Of a stretch of 17,794 bases of DNA, positions 1 to 17,794 are shown piece after piece. Source of the stretch: an uncultured delta proteobacterium (GTDB lineage Bacteria > RBG-13-61-14 > DRUE01); the NCBI GenBank assembly GCA_903930515.1, contig CAIYYW010000058.1, forward strand, positions 1 through 17,794, written 5' to 3'. Positions within the stretch are counted from its first letter, which is position 1, and every line of letters starts with the position of its first letter. The notes beneath the pieces were generated by a model. The model did not search any database and was not told where the DNA came from. It saw only the letters and a list, made by a program, of their open reading frames with translations. Made by a program: the position numbers and the translations under genes.

Positions 1-49
1 CCACTGGCCATTAATCACTGGTTATTCACAGGCTCTTCGCTATTGGCTG

Positions 50-1156: not shown

Positions 1157-1259
1157 TTTCCACCCCCCTGTTCATAATCCCGAAAACCGACCCTTTTCTC
1201 TTTAATAAAGTTTAGCCGATTTTCAAAAAAAGCAAGTCCCGCGAGCCTCTTCAAAATGG

Positions 1260-3424: not shown

Positions 3425-3440
3425 CCGGCCTTGATTTCAA
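3412..3440 (-). promoter_or_regulatory. Possible internal promoter for the receiver gene
   Basis: On the minus strand TTGAAA (3435-3440), a 17-base spacer and TATTAT (3412-3417). Predicted transcript start is near 3405, inside the longest reading frame, leaving GTG 3379 as the first leadered start. It may supplement read-through from the WG-repeat gene. Confidence 0.4.
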
Positions 3441-3490
3441 GAATTCAGCAAAAAAATTACCTCTCCGCCCTGGCCCCCCCCTGACCACTC

Positions 3491-4498
3491 CTATTCCGAA
3501 GGCTCCCAGACATATTTTCCCTGATCATTTATGTATCCGATCTTGCCCTGGAACTCCACCCGGGCCAGTTCGTCTTTAAAATCCAGCACGCTTTCAAATT
3601 GAGGCTTGATCACAATAGTCCCGAACCGGTTGATGAAGCCAAACTTGTCACCGGACTTGATCCGGGACCTTCCGTCGGAAAAGGGATACGCATAATCAAA
3701 ACCCGGCTCAATCGCTTTTCGGTTGGTCTTGCCGTAATCCAAATCAATAAATCCCCATTTCTGCCCGACCCGGACCCGCGCCAATCCTTCGCTGAACTCG
3801 CCCGCCTCGTCAAACTCAACCATCATCGCCATCTTGCCGGTCTTGCCGTAAGTCGGATCAATATATCCCCATTTCCCGCTAATCCTCACCGGGGCCAGCC
3901 CCCGGCTGAAAGAACCGCATTGCTCAAACATAGGCCGGATCGTGAACGCTCCGCTCCGGTCAAGGTATCCGCAATTCTGATCCCCGATCTTCTTTACCCG
4001 CCCCAACCCTTCGGAAAATCCGCCGCATACCGAGAAGGGGTCCTTGAACTTCAACACCCCGTCCCGATCCAAATAGTTGCATAAACCCTGCGAGCCGACC
4101 GCGGCCAGCCCATCCGAGAACGGAAAAATCTTGTCCCATTGCCCGGCATTGATCGCCATCCTTCCGGTCGGATCAATATACCCGTTGTCGCCGTCCTTCT
4201 TCACCGCGGCCAGACCCTCTGAGAACGCCCCGGCTTCATCAAATACCGCGTCAATCACGATCTTGCCGCCCAATGCCACATATCCATACTTGCCGCGGAT
4301 CTTGACCGGAGCCAGGCCCTCGGAAAAATCTTCCGCCCCGTTAAAAATCGGCTCAATCGCCATCTTCCCCTTCCGGTCAATGTATCCCCATTGACCGTTC
4401 TGCTTGACCGGAAATAGAGCGCTTGGCTCTTTGGCCTTGGCCAAAATGACAAAAAGCGCCATCAAAATAGTTAAACCAGCAATGTCCCTTTTTTTCAT
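3491..4498 (-). CDS. Secreted WG-repeat protein
   Basis: 335 residues. An N-terminal hydrophobic segment (about 7-22, LTILMALFVILAKA) is a probable signal peptide. The rest is eight full WG (KWG) repeats of about 35 residues plus a partial ninth: each has a WGYID/YGYV-type start, a K-x-x-I-x-P-x-F middle and a FSEGLAxV end. Repeat 6 and repeat 7 carry small insertions (DPTYGKTGK, DLDYGKTNRK). WG repeats are common in secreted or surface beta-structured proteins of bacteria; no enzymatic role is established for them and I assign none. The start at ATG 4498 is fixed by GGGAG five bases upstream and by the signal peptide. It is the first gene of a likely operon with the receiver-like protein and the glycosyltransferase. 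Confidence 0.9.
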   Translation of the reverse strand: MKKRDIAGLTILMALFVILAKAKEPSALFPVKQNGQWGYIDRKGKMAIEPIFNGAEDFSEGLAPVKIRGKYGYVALGGKIVIDAVFDEAGAFSEGLAAVKKDGDNGYIDPTGRMAINAGQWDKIFPFSDGLAAVGSQGLCNYLDRDGVLKFKDPFSVCGGFSEGLGRVKKIGDQNCGYLDRSGAFTIRPMFEQCGSFSRGLAPVRISGKWGYIDPTYGKTGKMAMMVEFDEAGEFSEGLARVRVGQKWGFIDLDYGKTNRKAIEPGFDYAYPFSDGRSRIKSGDKFGFINRFGTIVIKPQFESVLDFKDELARVEFQGKIGYINDQGKYVWEPSE

Positions 4499-4517
4499 AA
4501 AGCTCCCATCCGCCTTA

Positions 4518-4546
4518 TTTTTATCTCATCTCCCTCAAAGAATCAA
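4518..4546 (-). promoter_or_regulatory. Promoter of the WG-repeat gene
   Basis: Minus strand TTGATT (4541-4546), 17-base spacer, TAAAAA (4518-4523). The predicted start gives a leader of about 13 bases that includes the GGGAG Shine-Dalgarno sequence, unlike the leaderless promoters elsewhere in the window. Confidence 0.5.
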
Positions 4547-4553
4547 CGGTCAG

Positions 4554-4660
4554 AGGGGGCAGAGCTTAATTTTTAAGTTAACGGAGCATTGCGACCATGC
4601 ATTTTAACTGTCAGTTAATATTTATGATTAACTTAAGTTAAAAGTAAAGCGCTGACCACA
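4554..4660. mobile_element. Degenerate miniature REP/MITE-like element related to the adjacent transposase element
   Basis: Bases 4554-4579 match the left end of the transposase element (5102-5127) at 22 of 26 positions. Bases 4635-4657 match the right end (6104-6126) at 20 of 23, in the opposite orientation. The ends enclose about 55 bases with no room for a gene but with more copies of the same TTAAC core: a perfect 14-bp palindrome TTAACTTAAGTTAA at 4628-4641 and TTAACTG-T-CAGTTAA at 4604-4618. This is the structure expected of a non-autonomous copy moved in trans by a REP-associated transposase. Its right end overlaps the 3' end of the acetyltransferase gene. Confidence 0.6.
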
Positions 4661-5088
4661 ATCTCCCGGATTGGCCGCGACATTATAAATAAATCCTTCC
4701 GGACGGACCAGCCGATTTTTTTCCAGAAGCCGATGGCCTGATGGTTCTTTGCGAAAACAAAGATGTGGCATTTATTGATGCCGTCCTTTTTCAGGGCGGA
4801 CAGGCAGCGGTCCACCAGGCCGCGACCGATGTTCCGACGACGGCGCGAAGGCTTTACCGCGAGATGATGCAGATAGCCGCGCCGGCCGTCAGTGCCGCAA
4901 AGCGCCGCGGCCACGATTTCTTTGCCCTCCAGCGCCACGAAGCTGAGCGATCGATTTCGGAAAAGGAACCGCTTTACTCCGGCTCTGGAATCAATCTCCG
5001 GGTCCAGTCCCACTCCCTCCATACTCTTCCATAGCGCTGACACCTGATCAAAATCCCGGATGGTCATCTCCCGAATCTCTATCGCCAT
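4633..5088 (-). CDS. GNAT family N-acetyltransferase
   Basis: 151 residues, a single GNAT domain. The acetyl-CoA pyrophosphate loop is RRNIGRG (about 84-90), following beta strand 4 (YLHHLAVKP, 72-80). FAKNHQAIGFWKKIGW (112-127) is the usual C-terminal alpha4/beta7 region. Substrate unknown; the closest general type is the small YpeA/RimI-like group. The start at ATG 5088 is supported by a very strong Shine-Dalgarno sequence, GGGGAGGAG. The last seven residues and the TAA stop come from the miniature element, so the native C-terminus has probably been replaced. The gene lies 18 bases downstream of the transposase stop and may be co-transcribed with it. Confidence 0.88.
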   Translation of the reverse strand: MAIEIREMTIRDFDQVSALWKSMEGVGLDPEIDSRAGVKRFLFRNRSLSFVALEGKEIVAAALCGTDGRRGYLHHLAVKPSRRRRNIGRGLVDRCLSALKKDGINKCHIFVFAKNHQAIGFWKKIGWSVRKDLFIMSRPIREIVVSALLLT

Positions 5089-5101
5089 CTCTCCTCCCCT
5101 A

Positions 5102-5130
5102 AGGGGTCAGATCTTAACTTTTAACTTTTG
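5102..5130 (+). repeat. Left inverted repeat of the transposase element
   Basis: 29 bases identical to the reverse complement of 6101-6129. It contains AGATCT and two TTAACTTTT units, and supplies the stop codon (TGA on the minus strand, 5107-5109) of the transposase. Confidence 0.85.
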
Positions 5131-6063
5131 CGCCAGTTTTTCCAATTTCGGATCATCAAAAATCATCCGGTCGGCTTTCCGGATCCCCTGCGTGATCGCC
5201 GCGGAACTGACTTTAAAATAATCCGCGACCATCCCCACCGGAACTCCCCCATTCTCAACCAGATGCCAATACGCCAGCAGCCGCGCTGAAAAATCATACC
5301 CCCGATCTTTCAACCGGGCCTCCTTGATCCCAAAAACTTCTGCCACCTGTTCCAGCAAATCCTCCATCTCCCAAACCGGCCGGAACAAATTCCGATATTC
5401 AGTCACCTCGTTCTTTTTGCCCACGGGCGCAAACTTCTGCTTAACCTGCTCCACAAATTCCGCGGAGCCGATCACCGCCCGGTCCAGAAAATCGCTCCAA
5501 TATTTCCCGGGCTTGCCCGCAAGTTCCAGCCCGGCCTTCCGATATCGTTTTCTCCTTTCCACGCCGGTTCTGCCGAATTGCGCCAGAATCTCCTCCCGGC
5601 TGATCCAGTCAAACCTGGGCCGCGCCTTGATGTAATCAAGCCAGCTTGACCACTGGTATTGAGCCGGATTTTCAACCATCCCCGCCCGGACCGGGTTCAA
5701 ATGAATATAAAAACTTAAATACTGCCAATATTCCTCGTCTTCCACCACCGTGGATTTATATCTCCCCTGTAATAAATGACCGACCAAATGCTGCCGGAGT
5801 TGGAACCGGACGCTATAGCTGGTGTTCAGCCATTGCATCGCGCGGGAGAGGTTGCCCTCGGGGGTCCGCAAAAGCAGATGAAAATGATTGCTCATCAGGC
5901 AAAAGGCAAAAATTTCCAGGTGAAAGCGTTCCGCGGCCCGGGCCAGAAGCTTGAGAAAATCCCGCCGGTCAATATCGCTCATAAAAATATCGCGCCGATG
6001 ATTGCCCCGGGAGCTGATATGATATACCGCTCCCGAGAATTGGATCCGCCAAGGCCTCGCCAT
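5107..6063 (-). CDS. REP-associated Y1 (HUH) transposase with DnaA-like C-terminal helix-turn-helix
   Basis: 318 residues. The start MARPWRIQFSGAVYHISSRGN is characteristic of IS200-like/REP-associated transposases (COG1943). The metal-binding HUH motif is HFH (60-62, in CLMSNHFHLLLR). The likely nucleophile is Tyr119 in SFYIHLNPVRAG. The protein is longer than a minimal ~130-200-residue Y1 domain: residues ~227-300 (EVFGI..., GVPVGMVADYFKVSSAAITQGIRKADR) resemble the DnaA domain IV helix-turn-helix found in one group of these proteins. It should cut and rejoin single-stranded DNA at its repeat ends. The ATG overlaps the predicted transcript start, with no Shine-Dalgarno sequence. All key residues are present, so it may be active. 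Confidence 0.92.
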   Translation of the reverse strand: MARPWRIQFSGAVYHISSRGNHRRDIFMSDIDRRDFLKLLARAAERFHLEIFAFCLMSNHFHLLLRTPEGNLSRAMQWLNTSYSVRFQLRQHLVGHLLQGRYKSTVVEDEEYWQYLSFYIHLNPVRAGMVENPAQYQWSSWLDYIKARPRFDWISREEILAQFGRTGVERRKRYRKAGLELAGKPGKYWSDFLDRAVIGSAEFVEQVKQKFAPVGKKNEVTEYRNLFRPVWEMEDLLEQVAEVFGIKEARLKDRGYDFSARLLAYWHLVENGGVPVGMVADYFKVSSAAITQGIRKADRMIFDDPKLEKLAQKLKVKI

Positions 6064-6069
6064 ACTGGT

Positions 6070-6098
6070 TTTATATCAAACCCAATCCCCTTTGTCAA
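6070..6098 (-). promoter_or_regulatory. Leaderless promoter of the transposase
   Basis: Minus strand TTGACA (6093-6098), 17-base spacer, TATAAA (6070-6075), a near-consensus sigma-70 promoter. Six bases separate the -10 box from ATG 6063, so position +1 should be the A of the start codon. The -35 box begins three bases inside the right inverted repeat's edge. Confidence 0.7.
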
Positions 6099-6100
6099 GT

Positions 6101-6129
6101 CAAAAGTTAAAAGTTAAGATCTGACCCCT
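6101..6129 (-). repeat. Right inverted repeat of the transposase element
   Basis: 29 bases identical to the reverse complement of 5102-5130. It lies between the transposase promoter and the start of the protease gene. Confidence 0.85.
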
Positions 6130-6172
6130 ATGATGGTTGACATCAGCGGATAATGTGGCAAGCTCAGGGATC

Positions 6173-8989
6173 ATGAAAAAAGTGTTGTTAATTTTTGCCG
6201 GTCTGGTGATGAGCCTGAGCATCAGCGGCGCAGGCCAAGAGAAGCAGACTAATGCCAAGAAATTCTGGGAAAACCTTTCTTTTCCCAAATTAAGCAAAGA
6301 GCAGAAGGTGGACGGGATGAAAGTATTGAAACTGGAAAACGGGGCGCGGTCGGTGATAGAGGAGAACCATTCGGCGCCGGTGGTTGCGGTCCAGATTTGG
6401 GTCAAGGCCGGGAGCGCGGACGAGACGGATGATCTGGCCGGAGTGGCGCATCTGATTGAGCATATGGTTTTCAAGGGGAGCGAAAAATTCGCAGTCGGAG
6501 AGATGGCGCACCAGGTGGAATCTCGGGGCGGAGAGATCAACGCCTACACCACCAACGATTACACGGTCTACCATATCACCATCTCCAGCCGGTTCCTGGA
6601 TTTGGCGATGGATTTGCTTTCGGATTCCGTGCTCCATCCCAAGTTTGACCCGGAGGAAATCAGCAACGAGCGGGAAGTGGTTCTGGAGGAGATCCGGAGA
6701 CAGGGGGATAATCCTGCAGTCAAGATTTACGAGCAATTGATGGGCCTGGCATATCAGGCCTACCCATACCGCCGTCCGGTGATCGGGTATCAGAAGACGG
6801 TGGGTCAGTTTGAGCAGGAACAACTGCTCCGGTTTTATCATTGCAATTACGCCCCGAAAAACATCACGGTGGTCCTGGTCGGAGATTTGGACGAGCAGAC
6901 CGCAGTCAGCCTGACCAAGAAATATTTCGGAAAAGAAAAAGATCAAGCCGGCCGCTGCCCTTCTCCGTCGGCCAGGTCGGTTGCCGAGCCGGAAGCGACG
7001 GAGCTGAAAGTTCGGGTGGGTCCGGACCATCTGGAACGCGCGTATGCGAGTTTGGCCTGGAAAATTCCCAAGTTCGGCGATCCGGATATGCCGGCTTTGG
7101 ATTTGCTGGCCGCGATTTTGGGCCAGGGGGAAAGCTCGCGTCTGACCGAGAGCGTACGCGACCGGAAGAGATTGGTGGACCAGATTTTCGCATACTCGGA
7201 CACGCCGGTGGGGCCGGGGCTGATGATGATCGGGATGACCCTTGATTCCGACAAGCTGATCCCGGCGGCCCGACAGGTTTTGAATCAGATCGGCCGGATC
7301 CAGGAATACGGCGTGTTTGACTGGGAACTGGACCGGGTCAAGCGACAAATTGAAAGCGATTCCATATTCGCGCGCGAAACCATGGCCGGACGCGCCCGCC
7401 GGATCGGTTTTTTCACCTTCATCTCTGATAATCCGGCGTATGAGAAAACCTATCTGGACCAGATAGAAAAAATTGACTCTCAGGAAATCCAGAGGGTGGC
7501 CCGGAAATACCTTTCGGTTTCCCGCCTGGCAATGGCCGGGCTGGTTTCGGAAAAAGCCTTCAGCCCTAATTTGGAGCAACAATTGAATGAAGCGATCCAG
7601 CTTGAAGCCCTGAAAAAAATAGAGCCGGCCGTGGCTGAAATCCAGCCCTCCATTTCTTCCGCCCGGCTCTGGCCGGTCCCAGCCGTGGCCTCCAAAATTG
7701 CTCCGGTTTCGGAGCCAAAGAGGTATCTGCTCAAGAACGGGATCCGTCTTTTGGTTCGCGAGAATCATTATGTGCCCCTGGTCTCGGTCCGGGCCGGATT
7801 TCCAGGCGGGGTCCGGTTTGAAGACCAGAACAATAACGGCATTTTCAACTTCATCTCCGAAATGCTCACGGAAGGCACCAAGACCAAAAACGCGACCGAG
7901 ATTCATCGCCGGATAGAATCCCTGGCCGGAGCCATCATCGGTTTTGCCGGCAAGAACACCTTGGGAGCGTCAATGGTCATCCCCAGCCCTAATTTCGACC
8001 AGGGACTGGATTTGTTCAGCGACCTGATCCTGAACCCATCCTTCCCGGAAGACGATGTCAAGCGGATCCGGATGCTCACCCTGGCCGCGATCAAGCGCGA
8101 GCAGGATCAGCCCCGGCTGGTGGTGCGGAACCTGTTTTTGGAAACCTTATACGGCTCCCATCCCTACCGACTGAATCCGCTCGGCACCGAGGATAGCGTA
8201 AGGAAAATTTCCCGACAGGCGCTTCTCGACGGCTACCAGCGGTTCGCCTCCCCCGCGAACCTGGTGATCGCGGTTTCCGGGGATGTTGACGCGGAAAAGG
8301 TCAAGGCGCGGATGGAGGAGTTGTTAGGAAATTGGCAGGCCTCTCCCGGCCCGGCAAGTCCGCCCGGCCCGGAGCCGGCTTTCAGCGAGCCCCGGATCAA
8401 GGAGATTGAGCGGCGGGCGGTCCAGACCCAGATTATTATAGGCTGGCTGGGAACCACCGTGTCCGCGGCAGACCAGCCGGCAATGGAGGTGTTGAGCGAG
8501 GTATTGGGAGGGATGAGCGGCAGGCTGTTTATGGAATTGCGGGACAAGAAAAGCTTGGCTTACGAAGTGAGCGCCTATCATCTGGAGGGAGTGGAGACCG
8601 GGTATCTGGCCGGATATATCGGATGCGCCCCGGAAAAAAAGGAGGAGGCGATCTCGGGGATGAAGCTGGAGTTTGACCGGATCAAGCAGGAGCCGGTTTC
8701 GGAGGATGAGTTGTCCCGGGCCAAGAACAGCCTGATCGGAAGCTACGAGATTGACCTGCAAAGCAATATGAGCGTGGCCGGACATATGTTCCTGGACGAA
8801 TTGCTCGGACTCGGGTTCGGACATTGGGGGAAATATCAGGAACGAATCGAGACGGTGACCGCGGAGCAAGTGCAGCAGGCGGCCGATAAATATATCACGC
8901 CCGGATCCGCGCTGAGCGTGATCAATCCGAAGCCGGGGGAAACCCCGGAAAAATCCGATCCCGGCGCCGGCCCGTCTCCGCTAAAGTAA
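6173..8989 (+). CDS. Two-domain M16 (pitrilysin/insulinase-like) zinc peptidase, secreted
   Basis: 938 residues from ATG 6173. An N-terminal MKKVLLIFAGLVMSLSISGA is a signal peptide, so it acts outside the cytoplasmic membrane. The N-terminal M16 half has the inverted zinc motif HLIEH (93-97), with the third ligand Glu in NEREVVLEE about 75 residues later. The C-terminal half (from about 540, PKRYLLKNGIRLLVREN) repeats the fold, but the motif place reads IFNFISEML without His, so it should be the non-catalytic partner, as is usual in two-domain M16 proteins. It closes around and degrades oligopeptides; the substrate is unknown. A TTG at 6137 in frame is a longer alternative, but ATG 6173 puts the signal peptide first and has AGGGA just upstream. 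The upstream region is the transposase element's right end, so part of the native promoter may have been displaced. Confidence 0.93.
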   Translation: MKKVLLIFAGLVMSLSISGAGQEKQTNAKKFWENLSFPKLSKEQKVDGMKVLKLENGARSVIEENHSAPVVAVQIWVKAGSADETDDLAGVAHLIEHMVFKGSEKFAVGEMAHQVESRGGEINAYTTNDYTVYHITISSRFLDLAMDLLSDSVLHPKFDPEEISNEREVVLEEIRRQGDNPAVKIYEQLMGLAYQAYPYRRPVIGYQKTVGQFEQEQLLRFYHCNYAPKNITVVLVGDLDEQTAVSLTKKYFGKEKDQAGRCPSPSARSVAEPEATELKVRVGPDHLERAYASLAWKIPKFGDPDMPALDLLAAILGQGESSRLTESVRDRKRLVDQIFAYSDTPVGPGLMMIGMTLDSDKLIPAARQVLNQIGRIQEYGVFDWELDRVKRQIESDSIFARETMAGRARRIGFFTFISDNPAYEKTYLDQIEKIDSQEIQRVARKYLSVSRLAMAGLVSEKAFSPNLEQQLNEAIQLEALKKIEPAVAEIQPSISSARLWPVPAVASKIAPVSEPKRYLLKNGIRLLVRENHYVPLVSVRAGFPGGVRFEDQNNNGIFNFISEMLTEGTKTKNATEIHRRIESLAGAIIGFAGKNTLGASMVIPSPNFDQGLDLFSDLILNPSFPEDDVKRIRMLTLAAIKREQDQPRLVVRNLFLETLYGSHPYRLNPLGTEDSVRKISRQALLDGYQRFASPANLVIAVSGDVDAEKVKARMEELLGNWQASPGPASPPGPEPAFSEPRIKEIERRAVQTQIIIGWLGTTVSAADQPAMEVLSEVLGGMSGRLFMELRDKKSLAYEVSAYHLEGVETGYLAGYIGCAPEKKEEAISGMKLEFDRIKQEPVSEDELSRAKNSLIGSYEIDLQSNMSVAGHMFLDELLGLGFGHWGKYQERIETVTAEQVQQAADKYITPGSALSVINPKPGETPEKSDPGAGPSPLK

Positions 8990-9166
8990 AATCAGCCTGC
9001 CGGCCTCGGGATCAACTTTCTGACCCCGCACCCGAAGGCCAAGGCGATCCAGAAGCCGATGCTGGCAAAGCCGCGCCATATCCCGATCCGGGTCTGAAAG
9101 GGCCGACCCGAAGCAATTCCCGGAAACCTTCCGGATCAGCAACATCTTCGGATGGTTCGGACGGAT
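8990..9166. other. Convergent intergenic region between protease and methyltransferase
   Basis: The only structure seen is an inverted repeat GGCCTCGGG/CCCGAAGGCC (9002-9010 and 9031-9040) with one bulged base and a 20-base loop. It has no following T run, so it is not a clear intrinsic terminator. A 54-codon minus-strand frame crosses the region but has no ribosome-binding site or recognised homology. Confidence 0.3.
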
Positions 9167-10129
9167 TCAGCCGTTTTTCTTCAAGACCGCGAAAAGGGTT
9201 GAGCCTCTTTGGGGGAATCTCTTTTTCAGGAAAGAGTCCAGCCGTTTGGTCAAGCGGTTCTGCTCGCTGATCTCGCTGAGATGCGCGTAGGTTTCAAAAG
9301 AGACCAGTTGAAAGTTGTCAAGATATTTGGATAAGATTTCGGAAAAGTCTATTCCGCGGTCCCGATGATATCCGCCCGCAGTCGGGGAATGGATGTCAAC
9401 AATGGCCGAGATTTGCGAAGAGGAAAGCGGAGTTTGGATCAGACCTTCCTGCCCGAGCAGTTGATTAAGCCGGCCTATGATTTCACTATGGGATTTCATC
9501 TCGGGATTGAAGCGCTGGTAAATCTTTCGCGCCTGTTCAAAAAGCCGGAGTCTTCTTAAGACGGTTCCGGCAAATTGCCTGGGCCGATAAATTATGGAAA
9601 GGAATTGATAGAGGCTCCATAAAAATTTATCCGCGAAAAAAAACCGGTTCGGCTCGTGACCGATGACTAACAAGCCGTCTGGTTTCAATAAGCGGTTGAT
9701 CTCCAGGAAAAAAGGATGGAACTCCGGAATGTGGTGCAGGACCGAATTTAAAGTGATGAAATCAAAAAGCCCGGAGCCTAAATTGATCCGCTTGCCGTCG
9801 AGCTTGAGGAATTGGAATCGGCACCGGAAATTTTTCTTCCCGATATTCTCCCGGCAGACTTCCAGCATTTTTTCCGAAAGATCGGCGCATACGATTTGAT
9901 CCGGTTCTTTCAGGAATCCGGCGATCTGGAGCGGAACCAATCCGGTGCCGGTCCCCAGGTCCAGGACCATCAGCGGCCCGGGGCAAGGGGCGAGATATTC
10001 CTGAGCGATCTTTTGCCAGCGGGGGGCTTCCAGCCGGAAAAGCTCCTGATGGCTGCGCTCATATTCCCTTTGCTCCAGGTCGTGGTAGAGTTCATTTACT
10101 CTCAAGACCAGGCCGGGATGGTAGTCCAT
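9167..10129 (-). CDS. Class I SAM-dependent methyltransferase
   Basis: 320 residues from ATG 10129. Motif I is VLDLGTGTG (about 55-63). The acidic end of beta 2 is VCADLS (Asp83). Motifs II/III are FDFITLNSVLHHIPE and LLKPDGLLVIGHEPN. This is the Methyltransf_11/25-like Rossmann fold. A C-terminal ~150-residue extension (KIYQRFNPEMKS..., HSPTAGGYHRDRGIDF) does not belong to a fold I can name and may bind the acceptor. The substrate is unknown; HEPN and the extension recall methyltransferases found in surface-polysaccharide or lipid loci, but nothing here proves it. A start at ATG 10141 (four more residues) is possible, but that ATG lies inside the predicted -10 box, so 10129 is preferred. Confidence 0.9.
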   Translation of the reverse strand: MDYHPGLVLRVNELYHDLEQREYERSHQELFRLEAPRWQKIAQEYLAPCPGPLMVLDLGTGTGLVPLQIAGFLKEPDQIVCADLSEKMLEVCRENIGKKNFRCRFQFLKLDGKRINLGSGLFDFITLNSVLHHIPEFHPFFLEINRLLKPDGLLVIGHEPNRFFFADKFLWSLYQFLSIIYRPRQFAGTVLRRLRLFEQARKIYQRFNPEMKSHSEIIGRLNQLLGQEGLIQTPLSSSQISAIVDIHSPTAGGYHRDRGIDFSEILSKYLDNFQLVSFETYAHLSEISEQNRLTKRLDSFLKKRFPQRGSTLFAVLKKNG

Positions 10130-10136
10130 TTCGCCT

Positions 10137-10166
10137 ATCATAAATGATAACCGCTTAAGCTGTCAA
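10137..10166 (-). promoter_or_regulatory. Leaderless promoter of the methyltransferase
   Basis: Minus strand TTGACA (10161-10166), 18-base spacer, TATGAT (10137-10142). Seven bases separate the -10 from ATG 10129, placing +1 one base before the start codon. This decides against the upstream ATG 10141. Confidence 0.6.
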
Positions 10167-10265
10167 TTTTTGGTCTTGGGGCCAGACCTTTTAGTCGCGA
10201 TCGTCTGGCCGCGTTGGACTTGCTCGCCGGTTGATTCGGGATCGGCGCGCAAATTCGGAACCCAG

Positions 10266-10294
10266 TTGCAGTTTGCGCGGTCTAAACTTACAAT
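10266..10294 (+). promoter_or_regulatory. Leaderless promoter of the zinc-ribbon protein
   Basis: TTGCAG (10266-10271), 17-base spacer, TACAAT (10289-10294). Seven bases to ATG 10302 place +1 at about 10301. The AAGG in those seven bases would then not be in the transcript. Confidence 0.55.
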
Positions 10295-10301
10295 AAGGTC
10301 A

Positions 10302-11321
10302 ATGAAACATTGTCCCAATTGCGGAGCCGAGATTGCGGAAGGCGTAAAAACCTGTCCGGGATGCGGGGCTGGTTTGGACCACCAGGCCCGTCCGGCTCGG
10401 GCGAGCCTTCCCAAATCTCTGCATCCCTTCCTGGTGATGGGATATCTTTTAATCCTGTCGGCCTTGATCGTCTTGCTCCAGTGGGGATTGAAATCAAGGG
10501 CCGCGCATTCCGGCCCGTCCAGCCAGGAGGAAACCGCGCAGGGGGAAGCGGGATTATTGGGCCGGTTGAAAGGGGGAGTCCCCACGGCGGTTTCTTCCGC
10601 GGACAAAGAATATGTGAACGCCCTGGTTTACGAGCAGAAGTCAACCCCTCTTTTTCAGAAGCTGCTGGAGCTGGACACTGAATTGAGCAAGCCCGATCTC
10701 CAGCTCTCGGATTCGAGGTTCCGGGAGTTGAACTCGACCCTGGACAGCCTCTCCGATCAGGCGGAACAGGTCCTAGCCCCTACTTCCTTGGGCCCCTGCG
10801 CTATGGCAATCAAAACCGCGGTGGACCAGGAGCGGAGCGCGCTCAATTTTTATAAAAGCTATCAGCAGACCCCGACCCCTCAGCTTAAAGGCAGCTATGA
10901 TGAAAACCTGAGGCTTTCCCGCAACCAGCGCAATTATTGCCAGAGCCTGATTGAACTGCTCAAGAAACAACTCGGACCCGATCTTACGCTCAGCCAGGAT
11001 GATTTTCAAAGGATCGCTCAGCAAGAACTTTCCACGCCTCCGCCGGCGCAACCCTCGCCCGGAATCTCTCCCCAGGCGCCGCTCCCGGCTCCCGGGTTTC
11101 ACCAACCGGCGGGACCGATGCCTCCCCCGATCGGTTCCCTGCCGCAGTCCGAACGGGTTCTTTCGCCCCCCCCTGGTCATAATCCACTAAGCCTCCAACA
11201 GCCGGCTCCGAATGCAGACCCGGATCAGGAAGACGAGGATGCTGATGATAACAACGGCCCGGAAGATAATGGAACCGATACGGAAGACGGGGGAACTGAT
11301 GAAGAGGATCCGGGTCAGTAA
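10302..11321 (+). CDS. Zinc-ribbon, single-pass membrane protein with acidic tail
   Basis: 339 residues. The N-terminal zinc ribbon has Cys4, Cys7, Cys18 and Cys21 (HCPNCG...TCPGCG). A membrane segment follows at about 43-61 (FLVMGYLLILSALIVLLQW). The next ~170 residues are mostly helical (coiled segments with ELDTELSKPDLQLSDSRFRELN). From ~240 the chain is rich in Pro, Gln and Gly. It ends in a very acidic run (QEDEDADDNN, TDTEDGGTDEED). The layout predicts a cytoplasmic zinc ribbon and an extracytoplasmic helical domain. I do not recognise the family and assign no function. Longer in-frame starts upstream exist, but this ATG opens the zinc ribbon directly and follows the promoter. The stop overlaps convergently with the penicillin-binding protein gene by seven bases. 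Confidence 0.85.
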   Translation: MKHCPNCGAEIAEGVKTCPGCGAGLDHQARPARASLPKSLHPFLVMGYLLILSALIVLLQWGLKSRAAHSGPSSQEETAQGEAGLLGRLKGGVPTAVSSADKEYVNALVYEQKSTPLFQKLLELDTELSKPDLQLSDSRFRELNSTLDSLSDQAEQVLAPTSLGPCAMAIKTAVDQERSALNFYKSYQQTPTPQLKGSYDENLRLSRNQRNYCQSLIELLKKQLGPDLTLSQDDFQRIAQQELSTPPPAQPSPGISPQAPLPAPGFHQPAGPMPPPIGSLPQSERVLSPPPGHNPLSLQQPAPNADPDQEDEDADDNNGPEDNGTDTEDGGTDEEDPGQ

Positions 11322-13942
11322 TCGAGGCTTCTGAGCAGATCGTCGGTTTTGGGAGCGGCCCCGCAAGGAGAGGATTGAGCCGGGGCGGTTCCGGCCAGGA
11401 AAGATTCCACCACTATCTCGTCGCTGCAAGAGCTGGCCAATAATCCGGTCTTTTGGTCAATCCGGGCGAATTCAATACCGTCCGGCACCGGGAAATTCTG
11501 GGCAGGCCTTCCGGCCAGGGCCTCTTTCATAAAATCAATCCAGATCGGCTCCGCGGCCTGTGCGCCAGCCTCTCCCGGCCCGAGCGAGCGGCTGTATTCG
11601 TCAAAGCCTACCCAGACCCCGCAGATCAGTTCGGGGGAATATCCGATGAACAGGGCGTCCCGGAACTGGTTGGTGGTTCCGGTCTTTCCGGCCACCGGCC
11701 GCAACAGGGACCTGGCCTTCCAGCCGGTTCCCCGGGTGGCCACTCCTTCCAGCAGATTGTTCATCAGGTAGGCCAGTTGGGGACTGATCACGCGGGTTCC
11801 CTGGGACGGCGTGTCCAGCCCGGCCAGGCTCGGAACCTTTTGCCCCCGCAGCAGAGCCAGGTATTCGGCCGCATCCGGCTGGGAAATATCTTTGGGCTTG
11901 ATCGGCTTGACGGATTCCTTGGGAGGCTTGGTCTTCGATTCTTTCGCCTGTTCCCCGGGTTGGCCGAATTGCAGTTCCTGGATTTCCTCGGCCGGGCTCT
12001 TGCGCGAATGAAGCTCGAGCAGGTTTCCCTCCCGGTCATAAATCCGCCGGATCAGATGCGGTTCCACCAATGCCCCGCCCGAGGCGAATACATTATACGC
12101 CCGGGTCAGCTCTAACAGCGAGACCGGGTTGGAGCCGAGGGCGAGGGTGAGGTCCATTTTCATCGGGCTTTTGATCCCGAGCTTTCGGAGAAAGTTGAGG
12201 ACATAATCCAAGCCGATTTCTTCCGCGATCTTGATTGAGATGGTATTGATGGATTTTTCCAGGCCCTTGCGCAGGGTTCGGGGGCCGAGAAATTTTCCCG
12301 CATAATTATCCGGCTTCCAGATCATCACCTCGTCTTCCTGGGTATATTGAAAAACATCCGGCGAGTCATAAATAATGGTCGCGGGGGTGAACCCCTTGGT
12401 GGGATGGTCCAGGGCGGCCGCGTAAAGAACGGGCTTAAAGGCCGAGCCGGGCTGGCGGAAGGACTGGAGCGGCCGGATCAACTGGGTCTTGCTGAAATCA
12501 TAGCCCCCGATCAGGGCCTTGATTTCTCCGGTCCGGACCGAAAAGGCCAGCAAGCCCGCTTCCGCCTGGGGCTCCTGTTCGAGCCGGAAACCGTATTCCT
12601 TCCCCGGGTTCAGGTCCTTGATCGCGCTGACCGCCACCAGGATCACATCCCCGGCTTGGAACACTTTTTCCACCGGCTTCCCGCTCAGCGCCCATTTAAA
12701 ATTTTCCTTGGCGATCCAGCCGAAGCTTTGGCCCACGCTGATCTTGAGCCGGCTCCCGACCGGATCCAGCTCCCTCACCATCCCGGAATACTTGCGGCTC
12801 AATTCCAGCGGGATCGGAGAGGCCGGCTGGGCAAAGGGATCGCCCCCGCCCGCGACATTCCGAGTCTGCCATTGCTCCTTAAGCTTCTGCTCCTGATCGT
12901 TTAAATATTTTTCCAGGTCCGTTTTCTTCACCTGCTTCAGGGGACCGCGATAGCCTTCTCTTTTATCCAGGCCATCGCTTCCGGCCAGGCCGTTTCGGAC
13001 CCCTTGCCCCGCGGCCTTCTGCATCCCCAGGTTTATGGTGGTAAAGACCTTGAGTCCCTCGGTCAAAACCTTTTGCTCGCCGTAGCTTTCAAACAAATAT
13101 CTCCGGACCGCTTCAATAAAATACGCGCTGTCCTGAGTATACGGGTCCCCCTTGACCTTGAGCCGGATCGGCTCCGACTCCGCCAGTTGGGATTCCTGCT
13201 CCGAAATCATTTTCGTTTCCACCATCCGCCTCAACACGATCCGCTGGCGCGTCTTGGCCTCGGCAAAATGGTAGATCGGAGAATACCGGACCGGCGCCCG
13301 GGGAAGCCCGGCCAGCATCGCGGCCTCGGCCAGGGTCACCTGGTTGATGGGTTTTCCAAAAAATTGCTCGGAGGCCGCCTCCACTCCAAAGATATTACGG
13401 CCCATATTGGTTCCGAGGTAAATCTGGTTCAAATACAGCCAGAGCACCTGATCTTTTTTAAACTGATGATCAATCCGCCAGGCTAAAATCATCTCCTTGA
13501 TCTTACGCGAAAACAACTTCTTTTGGGAAAAATAAAAAGTGCGCGTCAGTTGCATGGTGATGGTGCTGCCCCCCTCCCCTTTCAGCTTGCCGGACCGGAG
13601 GTTGTGATAGACCGCTCCGCCCAGGCGATAAAAGTCCAGACCCTTATGTTCGAAAAAACGGGCGTCCTCGCTGGCGAGAAAGGCGTTGGTCACATAAGGC
13701 GGGATCATTTCAAAGGGCACCACCTTCCGGTATTCCTCGGCCAACTCTCCGATCAGGGCGCCGTCATCCGAATAAATCTCGGTGATCACTTTCGGCTTAT
13801 AAGCGGTCAGGGGATTGGTGGTGTTGATAATATCCAGGGGAAGGCCCCGGCTGAAATACCAGTAAGCCCCGACGGCGCCCGAAATTCCGATCACCAGGGC
13901 CGACGCGACCAAGATCAATCCCCATATGAGAATCCTTTTCAT
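11315..13942 (-). CDS. mrcA: Class A penicillin-binding protein 1A (bifunctional peptidoglycan synthase)
   Basis: 875 residues. It polymerises lipid II into glycan and cross-links peptides at the outer face of the cytoplasmic membrane. The N-terminal membrane anchor is at about 5-30. The GT51 transglycosylase domain has catalytic Glu92 (SEDARFFEHKG) and GGSTITMQLTR (124-134). A middle segment (~370-460) looks like the OB-type domain of PBP1A. The transpeptidase motifs are SAFK (Ser500-Lys503), SIN (564-566) and KTG (753-755, followed by TTNQFRDALFIGY). A Lys/Pro/Glu-rich linker at ~650-690 lies between SIN and KTG. All key residues are present. The symbol is by family, not proven orthology. 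ATG 13942 follows a consensus -10 box. Confidence 0.95.
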   Translation of the reverse strand: MKRILIWGLILVASALVIGISGAVGAYWYFSRGLPLDIINTTNPLTAYKPKVITEIYSDDGALIGELAEEYRKVVPFEMIPPYVTNAFLASEDARFFEHKGLDFYRLGGAVYHNLRSGKLKGEGGSTITMQLTRTFYFSQKKLFSRKIKEMILAWRIDHQFKKDQVLWLYLNQIYLGTNMGRNIFGVEAASEQFFGKPINQVTLAEAAMLAGLPRAPVRYSPIYHFAEAKTRQRIVLRRMVETKMISEQESQLAESEPIRLKVKGDPYTQDSAYFIEAVRRYLFESYGEQKVLTEGLKVFTTINLGMQKAAGQGVRNGLAGSDGLDKREGYRGPLKQVKKTDLEKYLNDQEQKLKEQWQTRNVAGGGDPFAQPASPIPLELSRKYSGMVRELDPVGSRLKISVGQSFGWIAKENFKWALSGKPVEKVFQAGDVILVAVSAIKDLNPGKEYGFRLEQEPQAEAGLLAFSVRTGEIKALIGGYDFSKTQLIRPLQSFRQPGSAFKPVLYAAALDHPTKGFTPATIIYDSPDVFQYTQEDEVMIWKPDNYAGKFLGPRTLRKGLEKSINTISIKIAEEIGLDYVLNFLRKLGIKSPMKMDLTLALGSNPVSLLELTRAYNVFASGGALVEPHLIRRIYDREGNLLELHSRKSPAEEIQELQFGQPGEQAKESKTKPPKESVKPIKPKDISQPDAAEYLALLRGQKVPSLAGLDTPSQGTRVISPQLAYLMNNLLEGVATRGTGWKARSLLRPVAGKTGTTNQFRDALFIGYSPELICGVWVGFDEYSRSLGPGEAGAQAAEPIWIDFMKEALAGRPAQNFPVPDGIEFARIDQKTGLLASSCSDEIVVESFLAGTAPAQSSPCGAAPKTDDLLRSLDY

Positions 13943-13950
13943 TCAAAATA

Positions 13951-13978
13951 ATTATAGTGGATCAGGGCTGATTTTCAA
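13951..13978 (-). promoter_or_regulatory. Leaderless promoter of the penicillin-binding protein gene
   Basis: Minus strand TTGAAA (13973-13978), 16-base spacer, perfect TATAAT (13951-13956). Eight bases separate it from ATG 13942, so the predicted leader is two bases. TATTTTGA before the ATG has no Shine-Dalgarno sequence. Confidence 0.7.
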
Positions 13979-14210
13979 TCCGGCCAAAAAAACCTTTGAA
14001 TCCGGTCCCGGACCGGTCCGGATTTCCCCTCCATCCTTTCCCGAGATGGGGGGGCGATATAAATGACGATAAATTATGCCGGTTTTAGGGGCAAGGATTT
14101 CCCGCATTCGCGCGGGACCGATTCTGGGCGCGGCAATCCGGCCCGAGGCGGGACCCTACCAAGACAGAATCCATAGATCTCACCAAAGATCTCGCCCACC
14201 CTCCCGCGAT

Positions 14211-14238
14211 TTGACAATAACCAACGGTCCCATAAAAT
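14211..14238 (+). promoter_or_regulatory. Leaderless promoter of the helical protein gene
   Basis: TTGACA (14211-14216), 16-base spacer, TAAAAT (14233-14238). Six bases (AAAAGT) separate it from ATG 14245, which puts +1 on the A of the start codon. No Shine-Dalgarno sequence. Confidence 0.65.
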
Positions 14239-14244
14239 AAAAGT

Positions 14245-14673
14245 ATGGGCGAGGAGATAAAATTAGGGCAAGCCACCCGGGAGACCCTTCGGAATGTCGT
14301 CCTGGTTACCATCCAGCGGGAAGCGGAATTCGAGCCGAAGCCGGACTTGGAAAGGGTTCTGGATAAATTTGAAGATATGATCGGCCGCACCACCATCGTG
14401 ATCCGGACCGGAGTGCTGATGCTGGTGAAGTCGCTGGAGATGAGCACCCTGGCCCAGGGATATCGGCATACTTTTTCCAAGCTCTCCCCCGAGGAACAGA
14501 AAGAATATCTCAACAAAATGGAGGGGAGTTCCACTTACGCCTTCCGCGGAATCGTTATGGGGGTCAAGACCCTGATCCTGCTGATTTACTTCTCCGAGCC
14601 CGAAGCCGAGGCCGCGGTCGGGTATGACGGCAAATGCCTTTCGCATGCCCGGTCGGAATCAAGCTCCGGCTGA
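14245..14673 (+). CDS. Small helical protein resembling the subunit or N-terminal domain linked to GMC oxidoreductases
   Basis: 142 residues, nearly all helical, without a signal peptide. The stretch HTFSKLSPEEQKEYLNKMEG, then AFRGIVMGVKTLILLIYFSEPEAEAAVGYDGKCL (about 75-132), resembles the small domain that precedes or accompanies GMC-type oxidoreductases (gluconate 2-dehydrogenase subunit 3-like pattern: LS-x-E-x-x-x-Y, a Lys-bearing hydrophobic helix, Y-x-x-P-x-x-x-x-x-x-G-Y). This is pattern recall, not an alignment. No oxidoreductase partner is in the window. The plus-strand frame is preferred over a 149-codon minus-strand frame because it has a good promoter, ordinary helical composition and the recognisable motif. 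Confidence 0.7.
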   Translation: MGEEIKLGQATRETLRNVVLVTIQREAEFEPKPDLERVLDKFEDMIGRTTIVIRTGVLMLVKSLEMSTLAQGYRHTFSKLSPEEQKEYLNKMEGSSTYAFRGIVMGVKTLILLIYFSEPEAEAAVGYDGKCLSHARSESSSG

Positions 14674-14679
14674 AGTAGA

Positions 14680-14696
14680 TCCGGATCCTTTCCGGA
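14680..14696. terminator. Weak hairpin between convergent genes
   Basis: TCCGGA-TCCTT-TCCGGA, a six-base stem with a five-base loop, lies between the stops of the helical protein and the Usg-like gene. Only a T-poor tail (AGATTTGATTT) follows, so termination is uncertain. Confidence 0.3.
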
Positions 14697-14713
14697 AGAT
14701 TTGATTTCCCCCC

Positions 14714-15742
14714 CTAGATCAATCCCAGCTCGATCAGCTTTTCCGCGATCTGGACCAGGTTCAGACTGGACCCTTTCCGGGTATTATCAATGACGATCCA
14801 GATTTGGAATCCATTTCCCGAACCGGCAACTTCCCGGATCCGTCCTGCTAATACCGGTTCCTGTTCCATCACGGCCAGCAAATCCGGGTATTGATCCTGG
14901 GCCGGATCGTCCATCACCTGGATGCCCGGGCGACGGGAGAGGAAATCCCTTAGCGCCCGTTCTGAAACGGGCTTTCGGGTTTGCAGAAAAAGAGAGATGG
15001 AAATCCCGGCAAAGACCGGCGCCTGTACGCAGGTCAGGCCGATCCCGAGTTCGGGAAGACCCAGTATTTTTTTCAACTCCTCCGCGATATCGTTTTCTTC
15101 CTCAGTGTCCCGATTCAGGAACCGGCCGACCTGGGGAAAAATATTAAAGGCGGCCTGACGAGGGAATTTTACCGGGTCAAAATCCTGGTTGTTGAAAATG
15201 GCAATGGTCTGTTCCTGAAGCTCTTCCAAACCGGCCCGACCGCCATAGCTGCTTCCGTAAAGCACGGTTGCCACCGCCTGCTTCACCCCCGCCTGATTCT
15301 CAACCGCAAAGAGCGCAAGCGAAAGCGCCACCGCGGCAGGACCCGGACTCGAAATGATCTTCCCTCCGCTTTTGGGCTTGAGCTTGGACAGGGCATCTGC
15401 GTTCACTTCCGGAACCAACAGCGGGACTTGCGGGTTCAGCCGGAATTGCCGGCTCGCGTCAATCACCCATACCCCGGCCTTGGCCGCGTCCTCCACCAAG
15501 TCCCGGCTGACCCAGGGATGCGCGGCGAAAAAGACCAAATCCAATCCCTGATAATAATCCGCCCGGATCGGCTCCAGGGTAAGCTCTTCCCCTTGAAACT
15601 CCACTGCCTCGCCCGCGGTCACAAACCCGGAAAACAGGGTCAAAGACCGGGCCGGAAAATCCCTCCGTTCCAACTGCTTGATCAGCTCGGTTCCCACCAT
15701 CCCGCCCGCGCCCACGATCCCGATCTGATAGGTCTTGGTCAT
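14714..15742 (-). CDS. Usg-like aspartate-semialdehyde dehydrogenase paralogue, catalytic residues missing
   Basis: 342 residues with the two-domain Asd fold. The NAD(P)-binding loop is GIVGAGGMVGTEL (8-20), then VIDASRQFRLNPQVPLLVPEVN (93-114). In the catalytic loop, the family's N-C-S/T is replaced: IISSPGPAAVAL (129-140) puts Pro135 at the nucleophilic Cys. The R-x-P-V-x-x-G-H segment reads QAPVFAGIS (240-248), losing the Arg and the catalytic His. The dimer and substrate regions remain similar (SSYGGRAGLEELQEQ, AAFNIFPQVG). This matches the known Usg-type Asd paralogues, which also lack the Cys; their role is unclear. It is unlikely to make aspartate semialdehyde. The neighbours give no biosynthetic context. 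ATG 15742 follows the promoter closely. Confidence 0.85.
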   Translation of the reverse strand: MTKTYQIGIVGAGGMVGTELIKQLERRDFPARSLTLFSGFVTAGEAVEFQGEELTLEPIRADYYQGLDLVFFAAHPWVSRDLVEDAAKAGVWVIDASRQFRLNPQVPLLVPEVNADALSKLKPKSGGKIISSPGPAAVALSLALFAVENQAGVKQAVATVLYGSSYGGRAGLEELQEQTIAIFNNQDFDPVKFPRQAAFNIFPQVGRFLNRDTEEENDIAEELKKILGLPELGIGLTCVQAPVFAGISISLFLQTRKPVSERALRDFLSRRPGIQVMDDPAQDQYPDLLAVMEQEPVLAGRIREVAGSGNGFQIWIVIDNTRKGSSLNLVQIAEKLIELGLI

Positions 15743-15750
15743 CGGCCGGG

Positions 15751-15779
15751 ATTTTAGCTTGCTTTGACTCCCGGATCAA
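15751..15779 (-). promoter_or_regulatory. Leaderless promoter of the Usg-like gene
   Basis: Minus strand TTGATC (15774-15779), 17-base spacer, TAAAAT (15751-15756). Eight bases to ATG 15742 give a predicted leader of two bases; CCCGGCCG has no Shine-Dalgarno sequence. Confidence 0.6.
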
Positions 15780-15878
15780 CTGCGACCGGAAAACCGATTT
15801 TTTTCCCATGGCCTCCCCGCTTCCCGGCCCGGCTTTCGGTTATTCCAAAATAATTTTATAAATAAAATACTTATTCTC

Positions 15879-15907
15879 TTGACAAAATATCCGCAATAGG
15901 GGAAAAT
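15879..15907 (+). promoter_or_regulatory. Near-leaderless promoter of the PilZ gene
   Basis: TTGACA (15879-15884), 17-base spacer, GAAAAT (15902-15907, weaker). Eleven bases to ATG 15919 predict a leader of about five bases, without a Shine-Dalgarno sequence. Confidence 0.5.
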
Positions 15908-15918
15908 GATCCGCAACA

Positions 15919-16266
15919 ATGATGAATTCAGAATCAGAGAACAGGAAGCATCCGAGGAAGTTGTTTGATCGGGCGGTCAAATGCATCACCACCCAGTTGA
16001 TGTTTGATTGCCGGGGGGTGAACCTGAGCCTGGGGGGCATCTGCCTCCGCTCGCCCATCACCTTTGAGTCGGGGGAGGATCTGGCCCTGCTGATCCCGGT
16101 CGGGAGCGACGAGGGCAGCCTGGTGATCGCGCTCGGGAAAGTGATCTGGATGCAGCAGTATGAGGAAAGCCTGAATGATCTGCCGGTTTACGCCGGAATC
16201 TCCTTCATCGCCACCGCGGGCAAATTCCAGGGCGAACTCAACAAGCTGTTCCCGGTTCCGGGATGA
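15919..16266 (+). CDS. PilZ domain protein (probable cyclic di-GMP receptor)
   Basis: 115 residues, a stand-alone PilZ domain. Both c-di-GMP-binding motifs are intact: RxxxR as RKHPR (about 9-13) and the D/N-x-S-x-x-G as NLSLGGI (about 36-42). The rest is beta-strand rich (EDLALLIPV, VIALGKVIW). In this family binding of c-di-GMP changes partner binding, often in motility, exopolysaccharide or regulation. No partner can be named: the nearest genes are the Usg-like protein (divergent) and the synthetase. A second ATG lies directly after the first; the difference is one residue. Confidence 0.9.
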   Translation: MMNSESENRKHPRKLFDRAVKCITTQLMFDCRGVNLSLGGICLRSPITFESGEDLALLIPVGSDEGSLVIALGKVIWMQQYEESLNDLPVYAGISFIATAGKFQGELNKLFPVPG

Positions 16267-16358
16267 ACTTTGATCCGGGCTGAGTTCCGCAATTTCCCTT
16301 CCCGGAATCCAGGGGAGCGGCCGTTTGCTCGCGCCGGATCCGCGGGTCCCGTTCAAAA

Positions 16359-16387
16359 TTGACTTTCCGCCCGGCTGGTTTTAAATT
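16359..16387 (+). promoter_or_regulatory. Promoter of the acyl-CoA synthetase
   Basis: TTGACT (16359-16364), 17-base spacer, TAAATT (16382-16387). Predicted start near 16394 gives a leader of about 26 bases carrying AAGGGGAA before ATG 16420, a conventional leadered promoter. Confidence 0.5.
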
Positions 16388-16419
16388 TTAACCTGTAAAT
16401 TCAAGATGAAGGGGAAGTT

Positions 16420-17794
16420 ATGGCCAGAGAAAATATGAAGTATCTGTTTGAGCCGGAATCAATTGCGATGATCGGCGCGAGCAACAATTTCTCTAAATGG
16501 GGTTTCATCATCCTCCACAACCTGATCATCGGCAGGTATGGCGGGAAAATATATCCGGTCAATCCCAAGGAGAAGGAAATCCTGGGCCTGACCTGCTATC
16601 CGAGCGTGGCCGAAATCCCAGGCGGGGTGGATTTGGCCCTGCTCACGATCCCGGCGCGGGAAGTCCCCAAGGCGGTGGCGGAGGCGGCGGAGAAAAAGGT
16701 CAAGGCGATCGTAGTCATCTCCGCGGGGTTCTCCGAGCTGGGAGAAGAGGGAGAGCGGCTTCAGCGGGAAATTTTGCAAACCGCGCGCTCGGCCGGGATT
16801 CCCCTGGTCGGTCCCAACGGCCAGGGGGTGTCCTGCCCGAAACTGAATTTCCATCCCTGGATGCCGATTTATTTTCCCAAGCCGGGCAAGGTGGCGATTT
16901 TAAGCCAGAGCGGGAACCTGCTCACTTGGCTGGCCGAGGGCCTGGAAAATTTCGGATGCGGCGTCTCCAAGGGAGTGAGCGTGGGAAATATGGCCGACCT
17001 GGACTGGGCGGATTACCTTTGGCATTTCGCAGACGACCCGGACACCAAAGTGATCCTGCTTTATATTGAAGGGATCAAGGACGGGCGAGCATTCCTTTCC
17101 GCGGCGAGCGAAGTGAGCCTGAAGAAACCGATCGTGGCCTTGAAAGCCGGACGCACCCCTGCGGGGATCAAGGCCGCATCCTCGCATACCGGGGCGATGG
17201 GCGGGGAAGACGCGATCTTTGACGCCATTTGCCAACAGAGCGGGATGATCCGGGCGCGGGGCATGGAAGAAGCGGTTATGATTTCAGCCGGACTGGTGGG
17301 GACGCCTGCGCCGAAAGGGAGACGGGTGGGGATTTTGACCGGAGGAGGGGGCCTGGGGGTGATGGCGGCCGATGAATGCCTGGAGCAGGGACTGGAAGTG
17401 GCGCCCTTGAGCCAAAATACCTTGGACAAGCTTTCCGCGATTCTGCCGCCCTGGTGGGCGCCTGGGAATCCGGTGGACCTGGTGGCCGGGATCGGATACG
17501 CCGGTCCCAAGGAAGTGATCCCGATCCTGATTGAGAGCAGGGATTTTGACAGCCTGATCCTGATCGGGATCGGATGGGTGCATGCGATGGCGGACATTTC
17601 CCAGATCTCACCATTGGCGGGGAAATTCGATTTGAAGAAGTTGAACGAGGACCGCAAGGCCGGCGATCTCCGCTACTGCCGTAAAATCCGGGATCTGATC
17701 AGGAATAATGACTACCCGATTGTCCTGGTGTCCACCCTGGCCGGACGGGCCATTGACCGGAATTTCGGGAGTCTGGTGGAACTCCTGTTAAGCG
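16420..17794 (+). CDS. ADP-forming acyl-CoA synthetase (acetyl-CoA synthetase type), 3' end outside the window
   Basis: 458 codons are visible and the frame is open at the window edge. It interconverts acyl-CoA, ADP and phosphate with acid, CoA and ATP, in the cytoplasm. Domains: N-terminal CoA-binding Rossmann domain (SIAMIGASNN, 14-23; YGGKIYPVNPK, 40-50), a second subdomain (GPNGQGV, 131-137; ILSQSGN, 160-166), and the phosphohistidine loop SHTGAMGGED with His256. Then comes the second flavodoxin-like domain (VGILTGGGGLGVMAADEC, GNPVDL at 349-354). This covers the alpha part; full proteins of the fused type run to ~700 residues with an ATP-grasp beta part, which would lie beyond the edge. 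If it stops soon, it is a separate alpha subunit. The start is set by AAGGGGAAG just upstream. Confidence 0.92.
   Translation, partial: MARENMKYLFEPESIAMIGASNNFSKWGFIILHNLIIGRYGGKIYPVNPKEKEILGLTCYPSVAEIPGGVDLALLTIPAREVPKAVAEAAEKKVKAIVVISAGFSELGEEGERLQREILQTARSAGIPLVGPNGQGVSCPKLNFHPWMPIYFPKPGKVAILSQSGNLLTWLAEGLENFGCGVSKGVSVGNMADLDWADYLWHFADDPDTKVILLYIEGIKDGRAFLSAASEVSLKKPIVALKAGRTPAGIKAASSHTGAMGGEDAIFDAICQQSGMIRARGMEEAVMISAGLVGTPAPKGRRVGILTGGGGLGVMAADECLEQGLEVAPLSQNTLDKLSAILPPWWAPGNPVDLVAGIGYAGPKEVIPILIESRDFDSLILIGIGWVHAMADISQISPLAGKFDLKKLNEDRKAGDLRYCRKIRDLIRNNDYPIVLVSTLAGRAIDRNFGSLVELLLS

Follow-up and report, generated by a model that had tools for sequence, protein, structure and literature searches.

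Does one bacterial genome use two ways of starting translation? The question was raised by a 17,794-nucleotide stretch of DNA from an uncultured delta proteobacterium, referred to here as the window (contig C58, positions 1–17,794, of a draft genome of 3.65 Mb that is 93.5% complete; hereafter G000). A reading of its letters alone, the original prediction, had placed a -35/-10 promoter pair so close to the ATG of seven genes that their transcripts would begin at or beside the start codon, and had assigned longer leaders to genes with strong Shine-Dalgarno (SD) sequences. We examined the window, the genome that contains it, and two relatives: a congener of the same genus (G001) and a member of the same order (G002).

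Promoters adjoin start codons in the window

-35/-10 pairs were sought within 45 bases upstream of each start in the window, and each upstream region was compared with 2000 dinucleotide shuffles. Sites are written as -35, spacer, -10 and gap, the gap being the number of bases from the end of the -10 to the ATG, whose position is given in parentheses.

6064–6098, minus strand: transposase promoter, TTGACA-17-TATAAA-6-ATG (6063); -35 at 6093–6098, -10 at 6070–6075
6137–6172, plus strand: M16 peptidase promoter, TTGACA-16-CAAGCT-8-ATG (6173); -35 at 6137–6142, -10 at 6159–6164
10130–10166, minus strand: methyltransferase promoter, TTGACA-18-TATGAT-7-ATG (10129); -35 at 10161–10166, -10 at 10137–10142
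10266–10301, plus strand: zinc-ribbon protein promoter, TTGCAG-17-TACAAT-7-ATG (10302); -35 at 10266–10271, -10 at 10289–10294
13943–13978, minus strand: PBP1A promoter, TTGAAA-16-TATAAT-8-ATG (13942); -35 at 13973–13978, -10 at 13951–13956
14211–14244, plus strand: helical protein promoter, TTGACA-16-TAAAAT-6-ATG (14245); -35 at 14211–14216, -10 at 14233–14238
15743–15779, minus strand: Usg/Asd-like protein promoter, TTGATC-17-TAAAAT-8-ATG (15742); -35 at 15774–15779, -10 at 15751–15756
15879–15918, plus strand: PilZ promoter, TTGACA-17-GAAAAT-11-ATG (15919); -35 at 15879–15884, -10 at 15902–15907

For the seven genes named at the outset, which are all of the above except the M16 peptidase, the top-scoring pair within 45 bases upstream was the one adjoining the ATG (p = 0.0005–0.0045 for all seven against the dinucleotide shuffles), and the predicted gaps of 6, 7, 7, 8, 6, 8 and 11 bases were reproduced exactly. 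These are sigma-70-type pairs, with TTGACA-like and TATAAT-like boxes at a spacing of 16–18 bases. The list of genes needed amending at two points even though boxes were found in all seven: PilZ is a borderline case, the weakest of the set, which a gap of 11 and a predicted leader of ~4 bases place outside the core class, and the M16 peptidase gene at 6173 had been missed. The shuffle p for this gene was 0.012, and because a second upstream site at gap 38 scores higher than the gap-8 site, the M16 case rests mainly on conservation between relatives (see below). An SD sequence is absent between the -10 and the start in the window genes, where gaps of 6–8 bases leave scant room for one. Weak SD-like bases do occur in the gap of the zinc-ribbon gene (AAGG) and of the methyltransferase gene (AGGCG), and both lie ahead of the predicted transcript start, as had been proposed.

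Pfam matches support the names of the Y1/IS200-like transposase, methyltransferase, zinc ribbon, PilZ, WG repeat and GNAT proteins. PBP1A matched transglycosylase and transpeptidase domains and the Usg/Asd-like protein a semialdehyde dehydrogenase; the helical protein had no Pfam match. Protein matches to PBP1A were 30–42% identical and scattered across phyla.

Six other sites were tested in the same way, upstream of the WG, GNAT, synthetase, response regulator, glycosyltransferase and Cys-rich protein starts, and gave p values of 0.29–1.0. The longer leaders expected of the strong-SD genes were recovered, with gaps of 19 bases for WG, 32 for the synthetase and ~29 for GNAT (weak boxes). The synthetase provides the leadered counterpart to the sites listed above:

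16359–16419, plus strand: synthetase promoter with leader, TTGACT-17-TAAATT-32-ATG (16420); -35 at 16359–16364, -10 at 16382–16387

Its 32-base gap contains an SD-like AAGGGGAAG, and the congener synthetase, read by hand, has TTGACA-17-TAAATT-32-ATG, a leader of unchanged length.

A genome-wide class of operon-leading genes

Gene calls for 841 kb of G000 came from a home-made caller that relies on coding statistics and start-codon preference; since it does not consult upstream signal, its choice of starts cannot create such a signal. This yielded 290 operon-leading and 223 operon-internal starts. At gaps of 6, 7, 8, 9 and 10 bases, promoter scores of at least 6 bits were reached by 11, 16, 22, 11 and 11 operon-leading starts, compared with ~6 elsewhere. 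The genome-wide -10 peak 6–8 bases before starts, which had been named as one of two observations on which the prediction would stand or fall, is thus present. Among the 223 operon-internal starts there was no promoter peak at gaps 6–10, and the SD signal was strong. The 3′ end of the 16S rRNA, which holds the anti-SD, was sought as well: no 16S gene was found in G000 or G001, and the G002 copy is partial.

A three-class mixture assigned 26.5% of operon-leading genes (bootstrap 23–31%) to a class with a start-adjoining promoter, called TA-led hereafter, 43.5% to an SD-led class and 30% to neither; for operon-internal genes the shares were 0.0%, 66% and 34%, respectively. This division fits the proposal of two initiation classes. 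The mixture weights for gaps 6 to 11 were.12,.23,.29,.14,.15 and.07. Because the first 20 regions had been picked partly for containing matches, the figures were recomputed on contigs taken by number alone, where the TA-led share was 25.5%. Slid controls, in which the model was moved 15–45 bases upstream, yielded 10–14%, leaving an excess of ~12–16 points; for this reason the class fraction is soft, and the true TA-led share of operon-leading genes lies between ~12% and 26%.

The promoter-like sites that the slid controls find upstream also lend something to a different account, in which the ATG-adjoining boxes are secondary promoters or regulator sites and the main transcript, with a leader, comes from further upstream. 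Second-best sites in the window score lower, however, and in seven of seven listed genes the top site within 45 bases lies at gap 6–11; moreover, a leader arising from an upstream start would itself be SD-free. We regard this account as very improbable.

Full-promoter patterns gave a concordant picture across whole genomes. TTGAC-N17-19-TANNNT-N6-8-ATG was counted 56 times in G000, 53 in G001 and 58 in G002; a shifted control (N15-17 before the ATG) gave 20, 26 and 20, and a reversed-pattern control 3, 4 and 5, respectively. The shifted control includes genuine leadered promoters, so its contrast with N6-8 is conservative. The strict hexamer TATAAT was found 12, 14 and 12 times at gaps 6, 7 and 8 before an ATG, against 4.3 per position elsewhere, in counts that include contigs selected for such matches. 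As a plain pattern TATAAT gave 94 occurrences versus 21 reversed and 65 with shifted spacing; the reversed control overstated the effect of this pattern, and the full-promoter patterns were used instead.

The same pipeline applied to 250 kb of Escherichia coli K-12 returned 0.0% TA-led genes. Deinococcus deserti plasmid 1, the positive control, returned only 7% (slid controls 0–3%). The probable reasons are that requiring a -35 makes the model too strict and that high GC complicates the calling of starts; the complete -35/-10 form stands out more clearly in the present lineage. In G002 the mixture was barely above the slid controls (0.121). A -10 consensus is short and degenerate, and AT-rich upstream DNA might be supposed to yield TATAAT-like words anywhere by chance. 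Yet neither shuffles, slid windows, reversed or shifted patterns, operon-internal genes nor E. coli produced the peak, and the probability we attach to chance is negligible.

Start codons and conservation between relatives

If the start codons were wrong, and the true starts were downstream in-frame codons preceded by an SD, the genes in question would be ordinary leadered ones. The methyltransferase and PilZ genes offer some grounds for this view: both have alternative ATGs within a few codons (for the methyltransferase an in-frame ATG at 10141, inside the -10), and both starts are uncertain by that margin. An SD-preceded in-frame start was also found within 30 codons in 23% of TA-led genes, but 16% of the other genes have one likewise. 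By contrast, domain edges and M1-to-M1 alignments pin down the zinc-ribbon, transposase and Asd starts. Zn_ribbon_3 matches residues 1–25 of the zinc-ribbon protein, the domain beginning at residue 1–3. The alignments of all transposase homologues from the order begin at residue 1, and most of their open frames extend just a few residues further. In addition, the gap to the same ATG is conserved between congeners, as described next, and wrong starts appear a very remote explanation, a shade more so than secondary promoters.

Starts were conserved between G000 and G001 in 31 genes, eight of which have a promoter at gaps 6–9 in G000. Six of these eight have the identical gap in G001, a number reached in 0 of 20000 partner permutations. 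Across the six matched pairs, identity was 86% in the hexamers, 42% in the spacer, 42% in the gap and 28% in the DNA upstream of the -35. Since a pair had to score in both species to be included, hexamer identity is overestimated, though gap equality is not. The equality of the gaps despite the diverged bases between is a stronger point than the identity of the hexamers.

Individual window genes follow this pattern. In the congener, the M16 peptidase has TTGACA-16-CAACCT-8-ATG, the zinc-ribbon gene TTGCAG-16-TAAAAT-7-ATG (at 42% protein identity), the helical protein gene TTGACA-17-TAAATT-6-ATG and the Usg/Asd gene TTGCGG-17-TACCAT-8-ATG. The congeneric PilZ orthologue shows a 24-base gap and, ahead of its ATG, AAAGGGAG; for PBP1A, a relative from the same order carries TATAAT-11-ATG (13.6 bits). 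In G002 the helical protein and Asd genes have leaders of ~24 bases. Class membership is largely kept between the congeners, PilZ being a change, and turns over in the more distant G002.

Predicted transcripts and their translation

Transcription starts ~7 bases after the -10, so that at a gap of 6 the A of the ATG would itself be +1, and at gaps of 7–9 the ATG would be preceded by 1–3 bases. From this promoter geometry we infer, with high confidence, that the organism makes leaderless or near-leaderless transcripts, initiated without an SD, beside SD-led ones. Operon-internal genes and many operon-leading genes would use an SD, and a second class of operon-leading genes would rely on a sigma-70-type promoter whose -10 ends 6–9 bases before the ATG. 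Ribosomes would then engage messengers with little or no leader, and the -10 box sits where an SD usually does. Ribosomes can initiate on such messengers without an SD (PMC5397173).

A variant that overlaps with this explanation has +1 falling 8–10 bases past the -10, or drifting, so that leaders are 1–10 bases long, too short for an SD though not strictly absent, and initiation would rely on an unstructured 5′ end and not on an AUG at the very 5′ terminus. The breadth of the gap distribution (6–11) suits it, with PilZ and the PBP1A homologue (both 11) at the far end. However, the mode is 7–8 overall and the gap is 6 in 10 of 14 transposase genes (see below), which points to +1 on or beside the A of the ATG, and we hold the variant to be possible though not likely.

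The promoter-ATG layout in transposase homologues

Among 18 close homologues of the window transposase in the three genomes of the order, 14 share the promoter-ATG layout, defined as a -35 reading TTGA(C) and a -10 that contains TA, followed 5–9 bases further on by the ATG of the transposase; twelve were found by pattern, and to these were added the copy on contig C34 of G002 and the window copy (TATAAA). In 10 of the 14 the gap is exactly 6. Spacers vary among these 14 copies, and identity to the one in the window is 42–49%, but they share descent and hence are not independent cases. We also considered the layout as a trait of the transposase family at large. Nine distant plasmid-borne homologues from other phyla mostly lack it, a comparable arrangement being seen only in Rhodospirillum rubrum (TTCTCT-17-TAGACT-7-ATG), and this broader reading was rejected: the layout is a trait of the copies in this lineage.

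One consequence, which we put forward as a doubtful proposal, is that the IS200-like (Y1) transposase in this order travels with a start-fused promoter and that leaderless initiation would insulate it from read-through. Read-through that began in an adjacent host gene would yield an RNA with a long, SD-free 5′ extension, which hence would go untranslated, and transposase would be made only from transcripts of the element's own promoter. Zheng et al. list protection against read-through transcription as a general advantage of leaderless translation (PMC3160421); its extension to a transposase is our own inference. A search for leaderless transposases found no paper in the literature collection consulted. 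The near-uniform layout suggests a testable form of self-limiting expression by a mobile element.

Relation to known leaderless classes

The nearest described class is that of TA-led genes, reported by Zheng et al. (2011) in 207 of 953 genomes, nearly all of which belong to named phyla, with a turnover in class membership that grows with phylogenetic distance (PMC3160421). There, as here, a Pribnow signal lies ~10 bases upstream in a subset of genes and an SD precedes the rest; TA-led genes are expected to be operon-proximal, and in G000 they are operon-leading only. Unlike that set, the present one comes from an uncultured order, in which three species were compared, and has clear TTGACA -35 elements. 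The TA-led start mode is therefore known; what is new is its occurrence in this lineage, the well-defined -35/-10 form and the layout in 14 of 18 transposase homologues.

In Deinococcus-Thermus, a -10 motif 6–7 bases before open reading frames is accompanied by RNA-supported leaderless transcripts, and TANNNT, present in nearly one third of genes, is conserved between congeners (Zhong et al. 2025; PMC12340547). The short distance from -10 to start and the conservation between congeners are common to both, while the transcript starts proposed here are read from the sequence. According to Lomsadze et al. (2018), as cited in PMC9581028, GeneMarkS-2 predicts leaderless transcription in 21.6% of bacterial species, for up to 40% of transcripts; that class is the same in kind, with SD and leaderless genes mixed in one genome. 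Gene finders that rely on the SD alone will misplace starts in such genomes. A sparsely sampled lineage with a clean two-class system, whose membership is conserved between congeners, provides an independent data point. Leaderless use is one trait in arguments about how early translation began. As to base composition, the TA-led signal takes the form TAtaaT in medium-GC genomes, and it does likewise in G000, which has a GC content of 0.54.

Repeats around the transposase gene

The Y1 (IS200-like) transposase gene, which lies on the minus strand with its ATG at 6063, is flanked on both sides by the arms of a perfect 29-base inverted repeat, AGGGGTCAGATCTTAACTTTTAACTTTTG, of which a partial copy is also present in the window.

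4635-4662: partial copy of the 29-base repeat
5102-5130: inverted-repeat arm
6101-6129: inverted-repeat arm

When the 841 kb gene-called part of the genome (G000) was searched, the repeat core, GGGGTCAGATCTTAA, occurred only twice, in these two arms. Terminal repeats of such a kind are usually absent from descriptions of IS200-like elements. A similar GGGGTCAG motif (GGGGTCAGGTC, GGGGTCAGACCCC) was found a short way upstream of transposase homologues in G002, a relative of the same order, and in Rhodospirillum rubrum (locus L141, ~4300; locus L211, 345-400, upstream of the transposase), suggesting an element-end sequence common to different phyla.

Other features of the window

6137-6172: M16 peptidase promoter, TTGACA-16-CAAgCT/CAAcCT-8-ATG
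50-1156, minus strand: Cys-rich repeat protein with CGDGYC motifs, in two reading frames
50-946, minus strand: one of its frames, TTG start
1004-1156, minus strand: its short N-terminal ORF

The M16 peptidase promoter is conserved in two species, in both of which the -10 box begins with C, an unusual base at that position. The gene for the Cys-rich protein may be interrupted by a frameshift, or its true start may lie elsewhere.

Probable leaderless layout in other genomes

By whole-genome counts, the leaderless layout is as strong in G002 as in G000. However, the three-class mixture model of operon-leading starts, applied to 332 kb of G002, rose scarcely above its own controls and favoured gaps of 9-11, a mismatch that may stem from the sample and the start calls. 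In G018, which is not among the compared members of the window's phylum, TATAATN6-8ATG was counted 42 times versus 2 for the reversed control, and the gaps were often C-rich (e.g. TATAATCCCCGCCATG); G018 is probably one more strongly leaderless lineage.
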